Shown: positions 48,861-59,520 of the stretch, one piece after another | How positions within the stretch are numbered: position 1 is the stretch's first letter | Layout of the letters: every line of letters starts with the position of its first letter | Origin: Actinocorallia herbida | Lineage (GTDB): Bacteria; Actinomycetota; Actinomycetes; Streptosporangiales; Streptosporangiaceae | Assembly (NCBI RefSeq): GCF_003751225.1 | Contig: NZ_RJKE01000001.1 | Location: 6,448,001-6,512,000, forward strand | Length of the DNA: 64,000 nucleotides | Direction of reading: 5' to 3' | Translations under genes and position numbers: made by a program | The notes under the pieces: generated by a model | What the model saw: only the letters and a program-made list of their open reading frames with translations | The model's database searches: none | What the model was told of the DNA's origin: nothing

Positions 48861-49470
48861 ACGCCCGTCCCGAAAACGCGGCCACCCGGAACCCGACCCA
48901 CGGCCGGCGCACACCGCGCTCCCGGGTCGGCCCGGAAACGCAGCCACCCGGGACCCGCCAGGCGCAGCGCGAACCGATGAGCCCAGATCGACCCAAAGAC
49001 GCGACCACGCGGAACCCGGCCCAAGGCAGGCGCACACCGGCATCCGCACCGGCCCGAGAACACGGCCCCCCGGGCCCAACCCAAGACAAGCGCACACCCG
49101 ACGTCCGCACCGGCCCGGAGACGCGACCAAGCGGAACCCGGCCAAAGGCAGCACGCACCCGACGCCCGCACCGGCCCAGCGACACGACGACCCAGGGCCC
49201 GGCCCGGGGCAAGCACAGACCCGACGTCCGCCTCGACCCGGAGCCACGACCAAGCAGAACCCGGCCAAAGGCAGGCGCACACCCGACGTCCGCACCGGCC
49301 CGGAGACGCGACCATGTGGGCCCAGCCCAAGGCAAGCACACACCCGACGCCCGCACCGGCCCAGCGACACGGCGACCCGGGGCCCGGCCCGGGGTAGGCG
49401 CGGACCGGTGTCCGCACCGGCCCGGAGACGCGGCCATGCGGGGACCGGCCGGGGCGGGCGTGGACCGGGC
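48861..49470. repeat. Ten tandem 61-62 bp intergenic repeats
   Basis: The landmark CGCACCGGCCCG (or variants) recurs at 48861, 48923, 48984, 49045, 49106, 49167, 49229, 49291, 49352 and 49413, a period of 61 or 62. Units run from a GCGCACACCCGACGTC start through an ACGCGACCAAGCGGAACC middle to a CCGGCCAAAGGCAG end. Units at 49106 and 49291, and at 49167 and 49352, are more alike than neighbours, showing a higher-order period of about 185. Unit length is not a multiple of three and all frames crossing it shift, so it is non-coding. It fills the spacer between the monooxygenase and the CocE-type gene. Confidence 0.85.
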
Positions 49471-53152: not shown

Positions 53153-54088
53153 TCAGGAAGGAATGCGGGACAGGCGGGCGCTGAGCCTCGCAGGGTCGGG
53201 CCAGCGGACGTCGTGGGCCCAGCCGAGCCGTTCCAGCAGCCGGATCAGGCCGGCGCTGGCGTCGAGCTGCCCTTTGAGCACCCCGTGCCTGGCGCAGGTC
53301 GGGTCGGCGTGGTGCCAGTTGTGCCAGCCTTCGCCGAAGGTCAGCAGGGCCACCCAGCCGACGTTGGTCGACCTGTCCCGGGTGGTGAAGTCGCGGTGGC
53401 CGAAGCGGTGCGCGATCGAGTTCACGGACCAGGTGACGTGGTGGACGACGGCGTAGCGGACGAGCCCTCCCCAGAAGAGCGCGGTCCAGAAACCGGCCCA
53501 GGACCAGGAGAGGAGCCCGCCGAGAGCGGCGGGCAGAAGGAACGACGCCACGACGAGGGACGCGTAGGCGGCGTCGATCCGGCGGATGTCGGGATCGGCG
53601 AGCAGGTCGGGGACCCAGTGCGCGCGGCTGGAGCGGCGCCGCTCGGTGTAGAACCAGCCGACCTGGGCGTGCAGCAGTCCGCGCAGCGGCCCGAGACCGC
53701 GGTCGCCGTGGGCCCACGGCGAGTGCGGGTCGCCGGGCAGGTCGGCGTACTTGTGGTGGCGGCGGTGCTCGGCGGCCCACAGCGAGGGCGGGCCCTCCAG
53801 GGCGAGCGCCCCGCAGACGACGAGTGCGGCGCGGACGGGCCTGGGGCATTTGAACGCCCGGTGGGTGAGCAGCCGGTGGTAGCCGACGCTGATGCCGAAG
53901 ATGTTCACCGTGTAGAAGAACGCGGCGATGAGCAGGTCGCGCAGCCCCAGACCCCACCCCCAGGCCGCGTAGGCCCCGGCGGGCAGCGCCAGGAGCGGCA
54001 GGACGACGAGCACCACAAGGTAGGTGTTGCGCCGCGCCCAAGAGACCGGGACGGTCCCCCGCACATCCAGATCCGACATGTCAGACAT
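53153..54088 (-). CDS. Membrane fatty acyl-CoA desaturase (delta-9 type)
   Basis: 311 residues from the ATG at 54088 with GGGAGGTG upstream. The three His boxes of the diiron desaturases are intact: HRLLTH (residues 71-76), HRRHH (108-112) and HNWHH (about 256-260). Four transmembrane helices flank them, and GEGWHNWHHADP is typical of stearoyl-CoA desaturases. It introduces a cis double bond in a saturated acyl chain. It is divergent, across a 194-base spacer, from the P450/dioxygenase operon and could supply unsaturated substrate to it. Confidence 0.94.
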   Translation of the reverse strand: MSDMSDLDVRGTVPVSWARRNTYLVVLVVLPLLALPAGAYAAWGWGLGLRDLLIAAFFYTVNIFGISVGYHRLLTHRAFKCPRPVRAALVVCGALALEGPPSLWAAEHRRHHKYADLPGDPHSPWAHGDRGLGPLRGLLHAQVGWFYTERRRSSRAHWVPDLLADPDIRRIDAAYASLVVASFLLPAALGGLLSWSWAGFWTALFWGGLVRYAVVHHVTWSVNSIAHRFGHRDFTTRDRSTNVGWVALLTFGEGWHNWHHADPTCARHGVLKGQLDASAGLIRLLERLGWAHDVRWPDPARLSARLSRIPS

Positions 54089-54282
54089 GACACCTCCCCC
54101 GGGACTGGTTCGTCCTTATTGGACCGGGGATGCGTAACGGTCGGTAGTGACCTCGCGGACAGATAACCATCACCCATAGAGGCGATTCGCGTACTCTGCG
54201 CGATATTTTCGGTTGCGACCGGCGCGATCATCTGCTTACCCTTCGAGTCCGGCCGATCACTCCCCCTCGCGTGGAGGCCAAA
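54089..54282. promoter_or_regulatory. Shared divergent promoter region of desaturase and oxylipin-like operon
   Basis: The 194-base spacer carries both promoters. It has relatively AT-rich runs near 54160-54175 and 54203-54212. No clear consensus hexamer pair or long palindrome is seen. The sharing of this region is the only sequence evidence for co-regulation of the two sides. Confidence 0.4.
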
Positions 54283-55530
54283 ATGGACACCGACGGTTAT
54301 CTCGCCCAGTACGACGCGCTCCACCAGAGCGACCCCGGCGCCGCCCTCGCGCTGCTGGCCGGCTGGCTGCGCACGGACTGGCGGCCCCTGTTCGCCGAAC
54401 TCCGCGCGCGCAGGCCCGTGCTCACCACGCCGGCGTTCACCCTCGTCACCCGGTTCGCCGACGTCACCGAGGTGCTGTCCAGGCCGGATTCCTTCACCGT
54501 CGCGGCCTACGCGCCACCGATGGAGGCGGCGCTCGGCGCGCCCAACATGCTGACGCGCGACGGCACCCCGCTGAACTGGCGAGAGAAGGGCCTCATGCAG
54601 GTCATGCTCGCGCCGGAGGACGTGCCCGAGCTCCGCGCGCTCACCGGGTCGCTGGCCGACGCCGCGCTCGACGCCGCGGACGGCTCACTGGACGTCGTCG
54701 CCGGGCTGTTCCGCGCCGTGCCGCTGGGCGTCTGCGCCGGGTACTTCGGCTTCCCCGGCCCGGATCCCGCGACGCTCTCGCGCTGGTCCCGCGCGGTGAT
54801 GACGGACGTCACCGCGAACCTCCCCGGCGATCCGGCCGTGCGGGCCGCCTCGGTCGAGGCCGGCAAAGAGATGATAGACTACCTGCGGGTGCTCGTCACA
54901 GCACGCAGGGCGGGCCCCGAGGGCGCCGACGTCCTGGGCAGGCTCGTGCGGACCCGGCTCCCCGCCGAGCTCGGCTTCGACGACGAGCGGGTCGCGGTCA
55001 ACGTCGCCGGGCTGCTGCTGGGCTTCGTGGAGAACGCCGCGGGCTCGATGACCAACGTGCTCACCCATCTGCTCGCCCATCCCCCGCTGCTCGCCCGTGC
55101 CGCCGAGGCCGCCCGCGACCCCGAGCGGTTCGAGCCGTTCGTCTGGGAGGCCCTGCGGTTCGACCCGTTCCTGAAGATGATCATCCGCTACCGCGCCCGC
55201 GACCATGTCCTGGCGTCGGGCGCCCCGCTCCCCGCGGGCGGCCCGGTGCTGGCCGCGGTCGCCTCGGCGATGTTCGACGAGTCGGCCGTCACCGCGCCGG
55301 AGACGTTCCGGCTCGACCGTCCGGCGCACACCCGGCTGCACTTCGGGCACGGCCCGCACGGCTGCGTCGGGGTCCACGCCGGCCGCACCGTCATCGCCGA
55401 GACCCTCCGGCGGCTCCTCCTGCGGCCGGGCCTGCGCCCGGGAGGCGCCGTCCTGCGCGACCGCGGTGTCTTCCCCGACAGCCTCCCCCTGCACCTCGAC
55501 TCCCCCGCATGGAAGGGGCCGCGAGCATGA
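54283..55530 (+). CDS. Cytochrome P450, probable hydroperoxide-rearranging type
   Basis: 415 residues from the ATG at 54283, with GGAGG five bases upstream. The heme loop is LHFGHGPHGCVGVHAG with ligand Cys361; the ExxR helix is VWEALRFDPF. In the I-helix the oxygen-activating acid-Thr pair (usually GxE/DT) reads LLLGFVENAAGSM: Glu250 is followed by Asn251, not Thr. An N-A-x-G core with Asn in this place is seen in hydroperoxide-metabolising P450s such as CYP74. Soluble, no anchor. The stop overlaps the dioxygenase start (ATGA), so it is coupled to it. Confidence 0.9.
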   Translation: MDTDGYLAQYDALHQSDPGAALALLAGWLRTDWRPLFAELRARRPVLTTPAFTLVTRFADVTEVLSRPDSFTVAAYAPPMEAALGAPNMLTRDGTPLNWREKGLMQVMLAPEDVPELRALTGSLADAALDAADGSLDVVAGLFRAVPLGVCAGYFGFPGPDPATLSRWSRAVMTDVTANLPGDPAVRAASVEAGKEMIDYLRVLVTARRAGPEGADVLGRLVRTRLPAELGFDDERVAVNVAGLLLGFVENAAGSMTNVLTHLLAHPPLLARAAEAARDPERFEPFVWEALRFDPFLKMIIRYRARDHVLASGAPLPAGGPVLAAVASAMFDESAVTAPETFRLDRPAHTRLHFGHGPHGCVGVHAGRTVIAETLRRLLLRPGLRPGGAVLRDRGVFPDSLPLHLDSPAWKGPRA

Positions 55531-57110
55531 GCCGCCGCAGCGCCCGCAGCATCTCCTCCGACGGCGCGGTCAACCGCCTGCGCTACCTCGCCCTCACCAA
55601 CGCCCGCCCGCTGTGGCGCCTGGCCGAGTCGGCCACCCCGCTCCGGCGCAGGCTGAACGCCACGCTCATCGACCAGGCGGTGCGCGAGATGCCCGCGCGC
55701 CCCGAGCCGCTGAGCACCCTGGCGCCGTACACCTCCTGGACCTCCCTCACCGACCGAACCTACGCCGGGCGCCATCTGCCCCCGTTTCCCGACCCGGAAG
55801 GCGGCCGCCCGTCCGTCGACAAGGCCGCGGACCTCTTCACCCGCGAAGGCCCGATGGACCCCTGCCCCCGGTCCACCGTGCTGTTCGCCTACTTCGCGCA
55901 GTGGTTCACCGACGGGTTCCTGCGCGGGGAGTCCGCCGAGCCGCGCGACCCCCGGCGCAGCACCTCCAACCACGAGATCGACCTCAACCCGCTGTACGGG
56001 CTGGACGAGCGGGCCACCCGCGCGGTCCGCGCGCACGAGGGCGGGCTGCTGAAGAGCCAGCTCATCAACGGCGGCGAGTTCCCGCCCTACCTGTGCGAGA
56101 AGGGGGAGATCAAGCCGGAGTTCGCCGCGCTGTCGGCGGTGCGCATGGAGATGCTGCCGCCCGAGCACCGCGACACGCTCTTCGCGCTCGGCGGCGACCG
56201 CGGCAACGTCCAGGTGGGCTTCACCCTGATGACCGTGCTGTTCCTGCGCGAGCACAACCGGGTCGCCCGGCTGCTGGCCGGGCGCAACCCCGGCTGGGAC
56301 GACGAGCGGCTGTTCCAGACGGCACGCAACATCGTCATCGTGGAGGTCATCAGGATCGTCGTCGAGGAGTACATCAACCACATCACCCCGTACCACTTCA
56401 GGTTCCTGCTCGATCCCCGTCTCGGCCGCGCCCTGGCGCGCGCCACCTGGCACCGGCAGAACTGGGCGTCGGTGGAGTTCAACCTCGTCTACCGGTGGCA
56501 CAGCCTGATTCCGGGCGCCCTGGACGTCGGCGGGCGGGAGACGCCGCTGGCCCGGACCCTGTTCGGCGGCGCGCTGATCCCCGGACCCGGGCTCGGCCGG
56601 CTGTTCGAGGACGCCTCCGAGCAGCGGGCGGGGCGGATCGGCCTGTTCAACACCGACCCGGCGCTGCGCGACGTCGAGGTCTCCTCTATCGCCGACGGAC
56701 GGGCACTCGGCCTCGCGCCCTACAACGCCTACCGGGAGCACTGCCGCTTCCGCCGCGTGCGCCGCTTCGACCAGGTCTCCGGCGACCCGCGCGTCCACGA
56801 GGCGCTGGCCGGGCTGTACGACCACGTCGACGACCTCGACCTGTACGTCGGGCTGTTCGCCGAGGAGCCCGGGTCGGCCAAGGCGATCCTGCCACCACTG
56901 CTCACCAAGATCATCGCGATCGACGCCTTCTCCCAGGCGCTCACCAACCCCCTGCTCGGACCGCGCGTGGCCAACGCCGCGACGTTCGCACCGCTGGGCA
57001 TGGAGATCATCGGCCGCACCCGGAGCCTGTCGGACGTCCTGCACCGCAACATCCCCGAGGACCCCGCGCCCCGGTTCGTCAGCATGACCTGGCGAGGGGC
57101 GCCGGCATGA
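55527..57110 (+). CDS. Cyclooxygenase/alpha-dioxygenase-like heme protein (An_peroxidase family)
   Basis: 527 residues with unusually clear similarity to animal prostaglandin H synthase: FLREHNRVARLLAGRNPGW, DERLFQTARNIVIVEVIRIV and VEEYINHITPY. The catalytic Tyr and the proximal heme His are in VEFNLVYRWHSLIPG (Tyr322, His325, equivalent to COX Tyr385 and His388). At the distal site COX FAQHFTHQF reads FAQWFTDGF: Gln125 is kept, but distal His207 is Asp129. No EGF or membrane-binding domain or signal peptide is seen. Expected chemistry is dioxygenation of a fatty acid without the peroxidase half-reaction. Coupled by ATGA to both neighbours. Confidence 0.92.
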   Translation: MSRRSARSISSDGAVNRLRYLALTNARPLWRLAESATPLRRRLNATLIDQAVREMPARPEPLSTLAPYTSWTSLTDRTYAGRHLPPFPDPEGGRPSVDKAADLFTREGPMDPCPRSTVLFAYFAQWFTDGFLRGESAEPRDPRRSTSNHEIDLNPLYGLDERATRAVRAHEGGLLKSQLINGGEFPPYLCEKGEIKPEFAALSAVRMEMLPPEHRDTLFALGGDRGNVQVGFTLMTVLFLREHNRVARLLAGRNPGWDDERLFQTARNIVIVEVIRIVVEEYINHITPYHFRFLLDPRLGRALARATWHRQNWASVEFNLVYRWHSLIPGALDVGGRETPLARTLFGGALIPGPGLGRLFEDASEQRAGRIGLFNTDPALRDVEVSSIADGRALGLAPYNAYREHCRFRRVRRFDQVSGDPRVHEALAGLYDHVDDLDLYVGLFAEEPGSAKAILPPLLTKIIAIDAFSQALTNPLLGPRVANAATFAPLGMEIIGRTRSLSDVLHRNIPEDPAPRFVSMTWRGAPA

Positions 57111-59266
57111 GCGACGCCGACGACGCCGACGCCCGGCTGCGGGCCGCCGCCCGTGAGCTCGCCGAGATCGCCCACGCGCTCCGCGAGGCGGCCGGGCAGG
57201 CCACCGCGGTGCTGGCCGACCCCGCGCTCGCGGCCTCGCTGCGCCTATCGCCGGGCACCGGGCTGCGCGCCCAGCGCGCGCTGCTGCGGGCCGTCACCGA
57301 CCGGCGCGGGCTCGGCTGGGCCGTCACCGGCGGCCGCGCCGGAACCCTCGGCGCAAAGCTCGGCGGGCTCGTCAACGCCGGAAACCTCCCGATCCGGGTG
57401 ATGACCACGTCGCTCCGGCTGCGCATCGCCGCGGTCGCCCGCGGCCACCCGGAGCTGGGCGACGATCCGAAGCTGCGCGGACTGCTCGACGCGGTCGCGG
57501 CCGACAGCGACCTCGCCGCGGGACGCGCGCTCTACGCCCTGGTCAAGGACCGGGGCGCGGCCGGCGCGCTGTCGAGCGTCGCGCCGGTCTTCGGCGAACT
57601 GCTGGCACTGCGCGCCCTGCTGGACCGGAACCCGCTGAACGACGCCACGGCCTGGCTGATCGCCACCGGCATGGGCACCGCGACGGCCGACCCGCTCACC
57701 GGCATGAGCAATCGCGTCGTCGCCGGGCTCGACCGGGGCCGGGGCGCGGCGGTCCCGGTCGAGCCCGCGCCGCACGAGGCCGCGCGGCTCAGCCCGCGGG
57801 GATCCTTCCTCGACTACCTCGCGGACCTCCTGGTGATCCGGCCCACCGGGCGCGCGCTGGTGCAGACCGTGCGCGGGCCGGACGGGGTGGCGCGGTACGT
57901 GGTGCTCGCGCCCGGCATGCGGATCGGCCGCCCGCAGACCGAGCACCCGGCCGACCTCCTCGGCGCGTTCAGCAGCACGGTCCTGGACGACGGTCCCTAC
58001 AGCCGGTCCCTCGCCGCCGCGATCGCCGAGTACGGCGTCCCCGAAGGAGCCGAGGTCGCCTTCGTCGGGCACAGCGCGGGCGGCTCCGCGGTGATGAGCC
58101 TCGCGCAGGACCCGGCGTTCAACGCCCGGCACCTCCTCACCGACGTGATCGCGATCGGGTCGCCCGTCGACTTCAAACAGCCCGCCTCGCCCGCCACCCG
58201 CGTCGCCAGCGTCACCAACCAGCACGACATCATCCCCACCCTCGACGGCCAGGGCGCCGGGAACTGCTTCGCGCTGCATCCCGACTGGTACATCGTCGAC
58301 TACACCGACGGCACCCACCTCTTCCCGGCCTGCCACGGACTCGAGCAGTACGCGGCGAACCTCCGCGACGACCTGCCCGAGGCACGCGCCCATCTGGAGG
58401 CCCAGCTCGCCGCCTACACCGGCCCGATCGTCCGGCGCCGGCTGTACCGCCTGCTCGACCACGCGCCCGTCCCACCCGGCTTCCCGTTCCTGACCGTGCC
58501 GACCCACCCCGTCGCCGGACCCGCCGGGCCCGTCACCGTGCCGCTGCTCACCCATGAGGCGACCGCGGTCTCGGCCTGGTTCGCCGTCTCCGCGGAAGCC
58601 GCGGCCGGCCTCCTGCCCGGCGGGTCACCCGGCACGGCGCTGCATCCGGTCGTCCTCGGCTCCCGGGCCTGGGCGGTGCTGCACCTCACCGACCATCGCT
58701 CGGCCGCCCTCGGCCCCTACCGCGAGTTCACGCTCAGCCTTGCCGTGCACTCCCCGCCGCGACCGCACCGGCGCGCGCTCTGGCGGGACGCCCTGCGGCC
58801 GCCCGCGCTGCGGCACGCGGGGCTGCATCCGCTGGCCTCGCTCGTCACCAGCCCGGCGGCGCTGGACGCCGCGGCCCTCTGGCCGCATTCGGTGCACCTC
58901 GCCGAGGCCGATCTGTCCGTCGCGGCGGGCTCCCTGGCGGCGGCGGCCAGCGACACGGGCCGGCCGCTCGTGGCGTTCGACGGACCGCTGGGTCCCCGCC
59001 TGCCCGCCCGGGCGGGCGGCCACCCCGGCTACACCGGGCCGAACGCCGATCGCTCGGTCCGGCACGTCCGGGGGCCGGGCACCGTGGCGCATCCTCTGCC
59101 GCGCATCCGGTTGCACGCGAGCACAGCGCCCCACCCCTTCACCGCGGTTCTGCGCGCGCTGTCCCTGGACGGCGCCCGACCCGTCCTGGTCCGGGTCTCC
59201 CCCGCCGCCCAGCTGCGCCGTGACGCCCCCGCCCCGCTCCGCCCGCCCGGAGGGTCCCCCGCATGA
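57107..59266 (+). CDS. Lipase-like alpha/beta hydrolase fused to an acetoacetate-decarboxylase-like domain
   Basis: 719 residues from the ATG at 57107 (ATGA overlap). Residues ~1-210 are helical and unassigned (DARLRAAARELAEIAHALRE). Residues ~225-440 are an alpha/beta hydrolase: nucleophile Ser323 in AFVGHSAGGSAVM, likely acid Asp in TNQHDIIPTLDG and His in DGTHLFPACHGLEQY. The last ~250 residues resemble the acetoacetate-decarboxylase superfamily fold (EATAVSAWFAVSAEAAAGLL, AWAVLHLTDHRSAALGPYRE, FTLSLAVHSPPR). The hydrolase part could release fatty acids from lipids for the dioxygenase; the ADC-like part could bind or rearrange a product. No catalytic Lys is identified. Confidence 0.8.
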   Translation: MSDADDADARLRAAARELAEIAHALREAAGQATAVLADPALAASLRLSPGTGLRAQRALLRAVTDRRGLGWAVTGGRAGTLGAKLGGLVNAGNLPIRVMTTSLRLRIAAVARGHPELGDDPKLRGLLDAVAADSDLAAGRALYALVKDRGAAGALSSVAPVFGELLALRALLDRNPLNDATAWLIATGMGTATADPLTGMSNRVVAGLDRGRGAAVPVEPAPHEAARLSPRGSFLDYLADLLVIRPTGRALVQTVRGPDGVARYVVLAPGMRIGRPQTEHPADLLGAFSSTVLDDGPYSRSLAAAIAEYGVPEGAEVAFVGHSAGGSAVMSLAQDPAFNARHLLTDVIAIGSPVDFKQPASPATRVASVTNQHDIIPTLDGQGAGNCFALHPDWYIVDYTDGTHLFPACHGLEQYAANLRDDLPEARAHLEAQLAAYTGPIVRRRLYRLLDHAPVPPGFPFLTVPTHPVAGPAGPVTVPLLTHEATAVSAWFAVSAEAAAGLLPGGSPGTALHPVVLGSRAWAVLHLTDHRSAALGPYREFTLSLAVHSPPRPHRRALWRDALRPPALRHAGLHPLASLVTSPAALDAAALWPHSVHLAEADLSVAAGSLAAAASDTGRPLVAFDGPLGPRLPARAGGHPGYTGPNADRSVRHVRGPGTVAHPLPRIRLHASTAPHPFTAVLRALSLDGARPVLVRVSPAAQLRRDAPAPLRPPGGSPA

Positions 59267-59520
59267 CCGTCCCCCGCGCCTCCCACGCCGACGGCCTCGC
59301 CGCCTCCGCCGAATCCGTCGCCGCCTGCGCCGTCCGCCTGCGCGCCCTCGCCGCCCGCCTGCGCGCCGACCCGGCGACGCCGCCCTGGCTCGCCGCCGCC
59401 CTCGACGCCCACCTCACCGCCTGCACCATCGCCGCCCGCCACCTGACCGAAGCCGCCACCCTTCTCACCGCCCACACCACCCCACCGGCCACCCCCTCCC
59501 CAACGCACGAGCCCTCATGA
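59263..59520 (+). CDS. Small helical protein ending the P450/dioxygenase operon
   Basis: 85 residues, coupled by ATGA to the lipase-like gene. Almost wholly Ala-rich helix (ADGLAASAESVAACAVRLRA, then WLAAALDAHLTACTIAARHL) with a Pro/Thr tail. Length and helical hairpin pattern recall WXG100-like small proteins, but the WxG motif is absent and the two Cys are not paired with it. It could be a chaperone or partner of the N-terminal helical region of the fusion protein. Function unknown. Confidence 0.6.
   Translation: MTVPRASHADGLAASAESVAACAVRLRALAARLRADPATPPWLAAALDAHLTACTIAARHLTEAATLLTAHTTPPATPSPTHEPS

Follow-up and report, generated by a model that had tools for sequence, protein, structure and literature searches.

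The window analysed here, 64,000 nucleotides of Actinocorallia herbida (NZ_RJKE01000001.1, positions 6,448,001 to 6,512,000), carries between positions 53,153 and 59,520 five adjacent genes encoding a membrane desaturase, a cytochrome P450 (P450), a cyclooxygenase-like heme dioxygenase (DOX), a hydrolase fusion and a small helical protein. We propose that the cluster encodes a bacterial oxylipin pathway, in which the DOX, which resembles 10S-dioxygenases, would make a fatty-acid hydroperoxide and the coupled P450 would convert it; judged from sequence, the probability of this reading is roughly 60%. The cluster looks like a bacterial version of the signalling-lipid pathways of fungi and plants. 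An oxylipin route was also the core of the original prediction for this DNA. The conserved pairing of the P450 and DOX genes, the gain and loss of the desaturase together with both, and a characterised Nostoc enzyme speak for that idea, while the substrate, the release by the hydrolase and the rearrangement by the P450 are steps that we still infer. No bacterial DOX-P450 operon was described in the open-licence literature, as judged from the titles and abstract openings among the matches listed.

In the proposed route, the desaturase would, by its family, put a double bond (probably delta-9) into an acyl chain, which the hydrolase, with its invariant Ser-Asp-His set, may free or present. By analogy with the Nostoc 10S-dioxygenase, a radical on Tyr322 of the DOX would abstract an allylic hydrogen and O2 would be added, giving a hydroperoxide such as 10-hydroperoxyoctadecenoic acid (10-HPOME) from oleate. 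This product would probably not be efficiently reduced in the DOX, which has a distal Asp, and the translationally coupled P450 would convert it by O-O cleavage, acting as an isomerase, an epoxyalcohol or diol synthase, or a lyase. In some other bacteria, a catalase-related hydroperoxide enzyme occupies the position that the P450 would fill here. The DOX step is suggested by homology and by a motif common to a characterised enzyme; the P450 step by linkage, partner exchange and partial residue evidence; and the desaturase and hydrolase roles, more loosely, by family and linkage. Behind them stand the observed gene content, linkage, co-occurrence, residue conservation and occurrence of different heme-enzyme partners on one DOX family. 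The best reason for thinking that the P450 takes the hydroperoxide is that the DOX family stands beside either this P450 or catalase-related proteins, the latter being kin of enzymes known to rearrange lipid hydroperoxides.

Conservation of the P450-DOX pair

As predicted, a divergent desaturase gene (53153..54088, minus strand) is followed by an operon of P450 (54283..55530), DOX (55527..57110), hydrolase fusion and small protein genes on the plus strand, each in its expected place. The expected four-base overlaps were also present, with ATGA junctions at 55527..55530 (P450/DOX), 57107..57110 (DOX/hydrolase) and 59263..59266 (hydrolase/small protein), as were the desaturase His boxes, the DOX Tyr/His motif, the P450 heme loop and the GHSAGG motif. 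When ORF (open reading frame) ends were read across loci, the last four bases were ATGA or GTGA in 42 of 61 P450 ORFs and in 55 of 69 DOX ORFs. The longest P450 ORF starts at GTG 54271, and ATG 54283 is preceded by GGAGG. The interval between the desaturase and P450 genes (54089..54282) is presumed to be a promoter region common to both; the divergent layout was kept in 55 of the 58 desaturase-bearing loci.

The order of the window was surveyed by searching 297 genomes with DOX and P450 profiles (E<=1e-40) and, in the same genomes, with a desaturase profile. DOX was detected in 66 genomes; 65 of these, and no others, also had the P450 family. P450 and DOX were adjacent on the same strand, with the P450 upstream, in 63 of these 65 genomes (tables read by eye), counting G145, in which the P450 is split over two contigs, and G210, in which it lies in two frames. 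The check proposed with the original prediction, a search for conserved pairing of the two genes, was thus answered positively, the pair being found across genera and in two phyla. Cluster-type desaturases occupied 63 places scoring at least 530 bits (next best place, 444 bits) in 62 genomes, and all 62 were DOX- and P450-positive; four DOX-positive genomes (G034, G084, G098 and G106) had none. Desaturase, P450 and DOX come and go together, because six genera (g7, g12, g17, g19, g24 and g38) each hold both cluster-positive and cluster-negative genomes.

The same picture emerged from a genome scan that yielded 69 DOX loci, 61 of the window's type (60 distinct, L030 and L069 having identical DNA over the cluster). 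The P450 was upstream on the same strand at all 61 window-type loci, within 150 bases at 55. Where the flanks left room, the desaturase was found at 58 of 60 loci (55 divergent, 3 co-directional), the hydrolase at 56 of 58 (with the L053 copy on the opposite side and strand) and the small protein gene at 39 of 56, being absent or undetected at 17; five loci had no room for the last. The other eight DOX loci (Solirubrobacter and kin, Frankia and metagenome-assembled genomes (MAGs)) showed none of the cluster partners, two of them lying on contigs under 9 kb.

The patchy distribution, with DOX in 66 of 297 genomes and both states inside six genera, resembles accessory metabolism. It would suit a cluster that builds a larger lipid or specialised metabolite, with DOX and P450 acting on a non-fatty-acid scaffold, as would the acetoacetate-decarboxylase-like (ADC-like) fold in the hydrolase fusion, which also occurs in natural-product enzymes such as MppR, an enzyme that we take to belong to the ADC superfamily. 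We regard this as the least probable of the explanations considered, given how closely the desaturase accompanies the pair (58 of 60 loci with room; 62 of 65 P450 genomes) and that C18 acids are the substrates of the characterised DOX that shares the motif.

Active sites of the DOX and the P450

The DOX (plus strand) belongs to the peroxidase-cyclooxygenase superfamily, matching Pfam An_peroxidase (PF03098) at E = 2e-47 (162 bits, cut-off 25), and its residues 18-513 aligned with prostaglandin G/H synthase 2 (5kir) at E = 2e-57. Tyr322-x-x-His325 (YRWH, 56490-56501) corresponds to the catalytic Tyr385 and proximal His388 of animal cyclooxygenase (COX). Two features set the protein apart from COX. 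The segment FAQWFTDGF aligned without gaps to COX FAQHFTHQF, placing Asp129 (55911-55913) at the position of the distal His207. Furthermore, COX has an N-terminal epidermal growth factor (EGF)-like part, which was not found in the DOX, its alignment starting at query residue 18 (chain residue 56) and its first 17 residues containing no Cys. The COX numbers used here, which we take to be the conventional ones, agree with PMC13049297. By sequence, Ser469 aligned with COX Ser530 (the aspirin site); the published structure-based register of the Nostoc enzyme seems to differ, so that two alignment registers are possible and the conservation of Ser530 is uncertain. The closest DOX relatives came from Actinocorallia (87% identity), and the nearest cyanobacterial DOX compared, from Acaryochloris, was 43% identical.

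Asp occupied the distal position in all 70 DOX proteins of the genome scan, the window's included. The scan had located these loci by six peptide patterns; FAYFAQWF, one of the six, adjoins the Asp, and the Asp itself lies outside all of them. In a more diverse set of 40 proteins, which overlaps the 70, the distal Asp was again invariant and the Tyr and His were kept (40/40). This set covered actinobacteria, Pseudomonadota, one cyanobacterium and one verrucomicrobial MAG; it included the window, 12 of the 61 cluster loci and loci found by profile or tblastn, and excluded L070 (broken DOX), L116 and L137 (internal stop), L138 (same DNA as L067) and L074 (remnant). Because Asp, Tyr and His are invariant across such diverse members, the distal Asp does not look like degeneration. 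The replacement of His by Asp is our reason for expecting that the hydroperoxide probably is not efficiently reduced by the enzyme that makes it.

The window's FTDGF fits the F-T-D-x-F motif of bacterial 10S-dioxygenases, the comparison with the Nostoc enzyme being made by its published motif. According to a 2026 review (PMC13049297, describing Brash 2014), the Nostoc punctiforme 10S-dioxygenase converts oleate and linoleate into 10S-hydroperoxides. The review gives its distal motif as F143-t-d-s-F, hence with Asp as in the window's DOX, and reports that its 10S-hydroperoxyoctadecadienoic acid (10S-HPODE) is used by a catalase-related hydroperoxide lyase encoded by a separate gene. The two systems thus share a COX-like bacterial protein with the Tyr and proximal His kept, the F-T-D-x-F motif and a separate gene for a second heme enzyme. 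They differ in that the window's partner is a P450, of another fold, rather than a catalase-related protein, and in that desaturase, hydrolase and hairpin genes belong to the window's unit.

The original prediction also drew a parallel with the fungal DOX-P450 fusions, linoleate diol synthase (LDS) and the Ppo enzymes. The parallel holds for the layout, a COX-like dioxygenase combined with a P450 that has the HxC motif and, in the window, an I-helix Asn. Membership in that family does not hold: the window has two separate proteins, encoded by overlapping genes in the order P450 then DOX (the reverse of the fusions), and the best solved relatives of its P450 are bacterial. The fungal CcDOX1 and CcDOX2 moreover carry a distal His, according to passages of PMC9579011, in contrast to the distal Asp of the window's DOX.

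The P450 matched Pfam p450 (PF00067) at 3e-7, over the cut-off, and contains an EALR motif and the heme loop FGHGPHGCVG (55342-55371). Its best solved relatives, found by phmmer searches of the PDB, were bacterial proteins, CftA and CYP164A2 among them. All 22 P450s of the DOX-linked family formed one clade with 100/100 support, some rows lying on long branches, in a tree that also held 19 P450s from the same genome (drawn from 30 loci examined, out of 71 match places listed); ORFs of at least 520 residues and loci without a motif match had been dropped. The predicted role and the I-helix Asn of 27 of the 61 cluster P450s recall plant CYP74. CYP74 enzymes have an insertion in the Cys loop, whereas the loop of the window's P450 has the standard ten residues, and its best solved relatives are bacterial. 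A mirror-tree correlation between DOX and P450 distances (r = 0.87, 61 proteins) was not used as proof because shared descent alone produces such a correlation.

The position of Thr252 of ordinary P450s is taken by Asn251 (55033-55035) in the window; neither this Asn nor the distal Asp of the DOX was part of the original prediction. Across the 61 cluster P450s, the window's included, this position held Asn in 27, Ser in 34 and Thr in none (one further row, the broken L044, was gapped there). By contrast, control P450s of the same genome, read by eye at 24 of 30 loci, had Thr in 23 and Ala in one. The acid Glu was kept in all 61, and Phe replaced the kink Gly in 56. Three rhizobial members of the family have Thr at this position and keep the Glu-Thr pair. 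According to passages of PMC13049297, an Asn lies near the iron in plant allene oxide synthase (AOS), prostacyclin synthase (PGIS) and LDS, and is dispensable in some of them. In the Cys pocket, the HxC residues His359 and Cys361 were invariant (15/15); passages of PMC9579011 state that PpoA isomerase activity requires the HxC His.

The main rival to the proposed pathway, which we consider unlikely, is a conventional lipid-hydroxylating P450. The DOX would still make a hydroperoxide, and the P450 would be an ordinary monooxygenase, either redox-partner-dependent or peroxide-using, that hydroxylates the oxylipin or another fatty acid, so that a hydroxylated lipid would result and not a rearranged hydroperoxide. 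This would fit the invariant Glu (61/61) together with the Ser at the Thr252 position in 34 of 61, as Ser can still support proton delivery, and equally the Glu-Thr pair of the three rhizobial P450s and the best PDB relatives, bacterial P450s of which many are named hydroxylases or monooxygenases. It fits less well with the Phe that replaces the kink Gly in 56 of 61 P450s, or with the finding that elsewhere this DOX family has catalase-related or KatG-like neighbours, proteins that act on peroxides. The I-helix signature is mixed (Asn, Ser and rhizobial Thr) and therefore does not decide between isomerase and monooxygenase. No ferredoxin-like ORF was found by one simple pattern in the short flanks of the 61 loci, which would argue weakly against a monooxygenase; we set this absence aside as evidence, the rate at the P450 loci of the same genome being just 2 of 30.

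Exchange of the partner of the DOX

Outside the order, the P450 family, 37-46% identical to the window's P450, recurred directly upstream of DOX in the actinobacterial family f48 (L132, L133 and L136) and on plasmids of Rhizobium gallicum, R. etli and Sinorhizobium medicae (L119, L120 and L121); seven of the 12 plasmid records with DOX were examined. At another f48 locus, L135, the P450 lay about 4 kb from DOX on the opposite strand. When the presence of the P450, near and remnant cases included, was mapped on the DOX tree, 6 changes were needed. In wider draws, DOX occurred in 7 of 396 genomes of the phylum (E<=1e-30, centre genome included) and, at E<=1e-40 and with centre genomes included, in 4 of 398 genomes in the phylum of G692 and 3 of 149 in the class of G695.

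At three loci (L122, L123 and L124), a catalase-related protein adjoins DOX instead of the P450. The neighbour in Methylobacterium currus is annotated as catalase-related and matched Pfam Catalase at 9e-7; that in Paracoccus yeei is annotated as a catalase family protein and overlaps DOX by ATGA; and that in Ruegeria conchae, annotated as hypothetical, matched the Paracoccus protein at 2e-32. A profile of the three matched 3e4w, an uncharacterized entry that we take to be catalase-related, at 3e-8 and the catalase easC at 0.006. In two genomes from the phylum of G692, DOX is directly flanked by a KatG-like peroxidase, in L139 (7252-11157; PF00141 at 7e-76 in two stretches) and, by the look of the sequence, in L140 (5599-9562). 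A glutathione S-transferase (GST) and an AMP-binding protein adjoined DOX in a betaproteobacterial MAG, and a patatin lay about 2 kb upstream of a Frankia DOX. The KatG and GST neighbours came from reading gene lists rather than from a search across all loci.

Such neighbours, the KatG-like peroxidases of L139 and L140 and the GST of L071, could also belong to a protective system, in which DOX and P450 would clear lipid peroxides or unsaturated lipids during oxidative stress, with no dedicated signal product, and the hydrolase could cut damaged acyl chains. We judge this very unlikely: the change of the distal His to Asp argues against a peroxide-reducing role, the cluster desaturase makes more unsaturated lipid, and the Nostoc dioxygenase that shares the motif is biosynthetic.

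Several points weigh against the proposed oxylipin pathway. We know of no polyunsaturated substrate in these bacteria. Asp is able to act as a distal acid-base in other peroxidases, and the loss of peroxidase activity in the DOX is uncertain for that reason. HxC is frequent among bacterial P450s, hence a weak sign. The I-helix Asn had been considered as a decisive isomerase hallmark and was rejected, as relatives carry Ser (34/61) or Thr; thromboxane synthase (TXS) and fungal AOS, known hydroperoxide P450s, are moreover without it, according to passages of PMC13049297. As to partner exchange, a Pfam scan assigned no family to the Paracoccus and Ruegeria neighbours (L123 and L124), which are tied to catalases by the record name (L123) and by matching the L122 protein. 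At 16 distinct DOX loci, some with short flanks, tblastn found no P450 of the family, catalase-related, cluster desaturase, hydrolase or small gene. The co-occurrence counts are not independent, the genomes being related, and in each genome a profile search scored only the 5 to 8 top first-look candidates. The DOX of G098 is a distant one, and this genome has no P450 of the DOX-linked family; two P450-bearing genomes lack an adjacent pair. In G182 (L072), the DOX is gone from the cluster, in which desaturase, P450, hydrolase and small protein stay, and a 60% identical DOX lies elsewhere. G084 (L074) has, behind a P450, a stretch of 64 residues that resembles DOX (34%, E 4e-6); a distant DOX is encoded at another site.

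If the DOX-P450 oxylipin pathway is real, its P450 family, being neither of the CYP74 nor of the fungal fusion type, may represent a third origin of P450 hydroperoxide chemistry. A DOX lineage that swaps its second heme enzyme (P450, catalase-related lyases or KatG) might then serve as a model for the origin of the fungal DOX-P450 fusions, and its product could be a lipid signal of sporulating actinomycetes and root-nodule bacteria. We offer this wider interpretation tentatively, considering it somewhat more likely to be wrong than right. Passages of the 2026 review (PMC13049297) suggest that the P450 halves of the fungal fusions may descend from a bacterial P450 that at one time formed a fusion with a member of the superfamily. 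An unfused DOX-P450 operon conserved in three lineages (the window's order, family f48 and rhizobial plasmids) makes this idea testable with ordinary proteins in E. coli. Such a pathway would also mean a further class of oxylipins, made by actinomycetes and nodule bacteria, and would provide a natural experiment in the exchange of partners (P450, catalase-related and KatG-like) on one dioxygenase scaffold.

Some further observations concern DOX loci and their neighbours. A second DOX in G025 (L077) is preceded by a 94-residue P450-like stretch; at L072, L074 and L077, one partner of the P450-DOX pair has decayed or moved. Upstream of the pair, L132, L133 and L136 have two small genes in common, the first glyoxalase-like and the second, by eye, similar to proteins of the pyridoxamine-phosphate-oxidase type. 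At L062:11563-15006, L067:11589-15011 and L142:3723-7310, DOX has a very large ORF as its neighbour (1140-1195 residues; by eye like a regulator); none of the three loci showed a P450 of the DOX-linked family, and two are listed as Solirubrobacteraceae. Elsewhere in the genome of the window, on the minus strand (G000:C1 ~3843629-3845155; L001:1429-4362), lies a gene for a protein of 977 residues that joins a catalase-related domain (9e-26 against the Paracoccus protein; 1e-7 against Pfam Catalase) to An_peroxidase (1e-96). It constitutes a second, fused pairing of the catalase-related and An_peroxidase kinds, and its distal motif by eye is VHDW.

Desaturase, hydrolase fusion and small protein

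The desaturase is a membrane fatty-acid desaturase of the SCD1 (delta-9-like) kind. It matched Pfam FA_desaturase (PF00487) at 2e-21, over the cut-off, with acyl-CoA desaturase 1 (4ymk; 2e-29) as its best PDB match. The His boxes expected of a stearoyl-CoA-type enzyme (H71/H76, H108/H111/H112 and H256/H259/H260) were invariant in all 14 aligned rows. Three linked layouts were found, namely divergent, co-directional upstream (Acrocarpospora) and downstream of DOX (G213, still adjacent); the G240 copy has one internal stop.

The N-terminal part of the hydrolase fusion (about residues 1-460; 57107..58486, plus strand) is an alpha/beta serine hydrolase, judging from the candidate triad Ser323 (58073-58075), Asp374 (58226-58228) and His410 (58334-58336), which was invariant in 22 of 22 rows. 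Its match to Pfam Lipase_3 (PF01764; 4e-4, 20.7 bits) fell just under the 22-bit cut-off, and it was not classified as a class-3 lipase. Its Foldseek matches outside ADC were weak (0.015 or worse) and do not tell an esterase, a lipase and a thioesterase apart.

The ADC-like fold anticipated for the C-terminal half (58487..59266, plus strand) was borne out by a predicted model (mean pLDDT, a per-residue confidence score, of 75; C-terminal half confident), for which all 24 Foldseek matches at E<=0.001 were ADC entries or their relatives (best, 3cmb at 2.9e-10). In the window, the last 260 residues of the fusion are free of lysine; 16 aligned relatives that bear the domain have 0 to 2. Unlike acetoacetate decarboxylase, whose fold it shares, the window's copy cannot carry out Schiff-base chemistry because it has no lysine. 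The domain is missing in some relatives (L030, L040, L055, L056, L057, L063, L069 and L072), in which the hydrolase has only 438-486 residues. A binding or structural role is more likely for the ADC-like half.

The small protein (59263..59520, plus strand) is predicted to form an 85-residue two-helix hairpin (model pLDDT 93), with a Trp between the helices that was invariant in an 18-row alignment (A5). The Trp recalls WXG100 proteins; membership in the WXG100/ESX family was rejected, ESAT-6-like hairpins appearing at E above 1 only. The protein had no match in Pfam and no significant structural match in a Foldseek search. Upstream of the cluster, between two genes, the window contains a tandem array (48997-49450) with a unit of ~61 bp (also read as 123 bp) in ~7 copies with 72% match.

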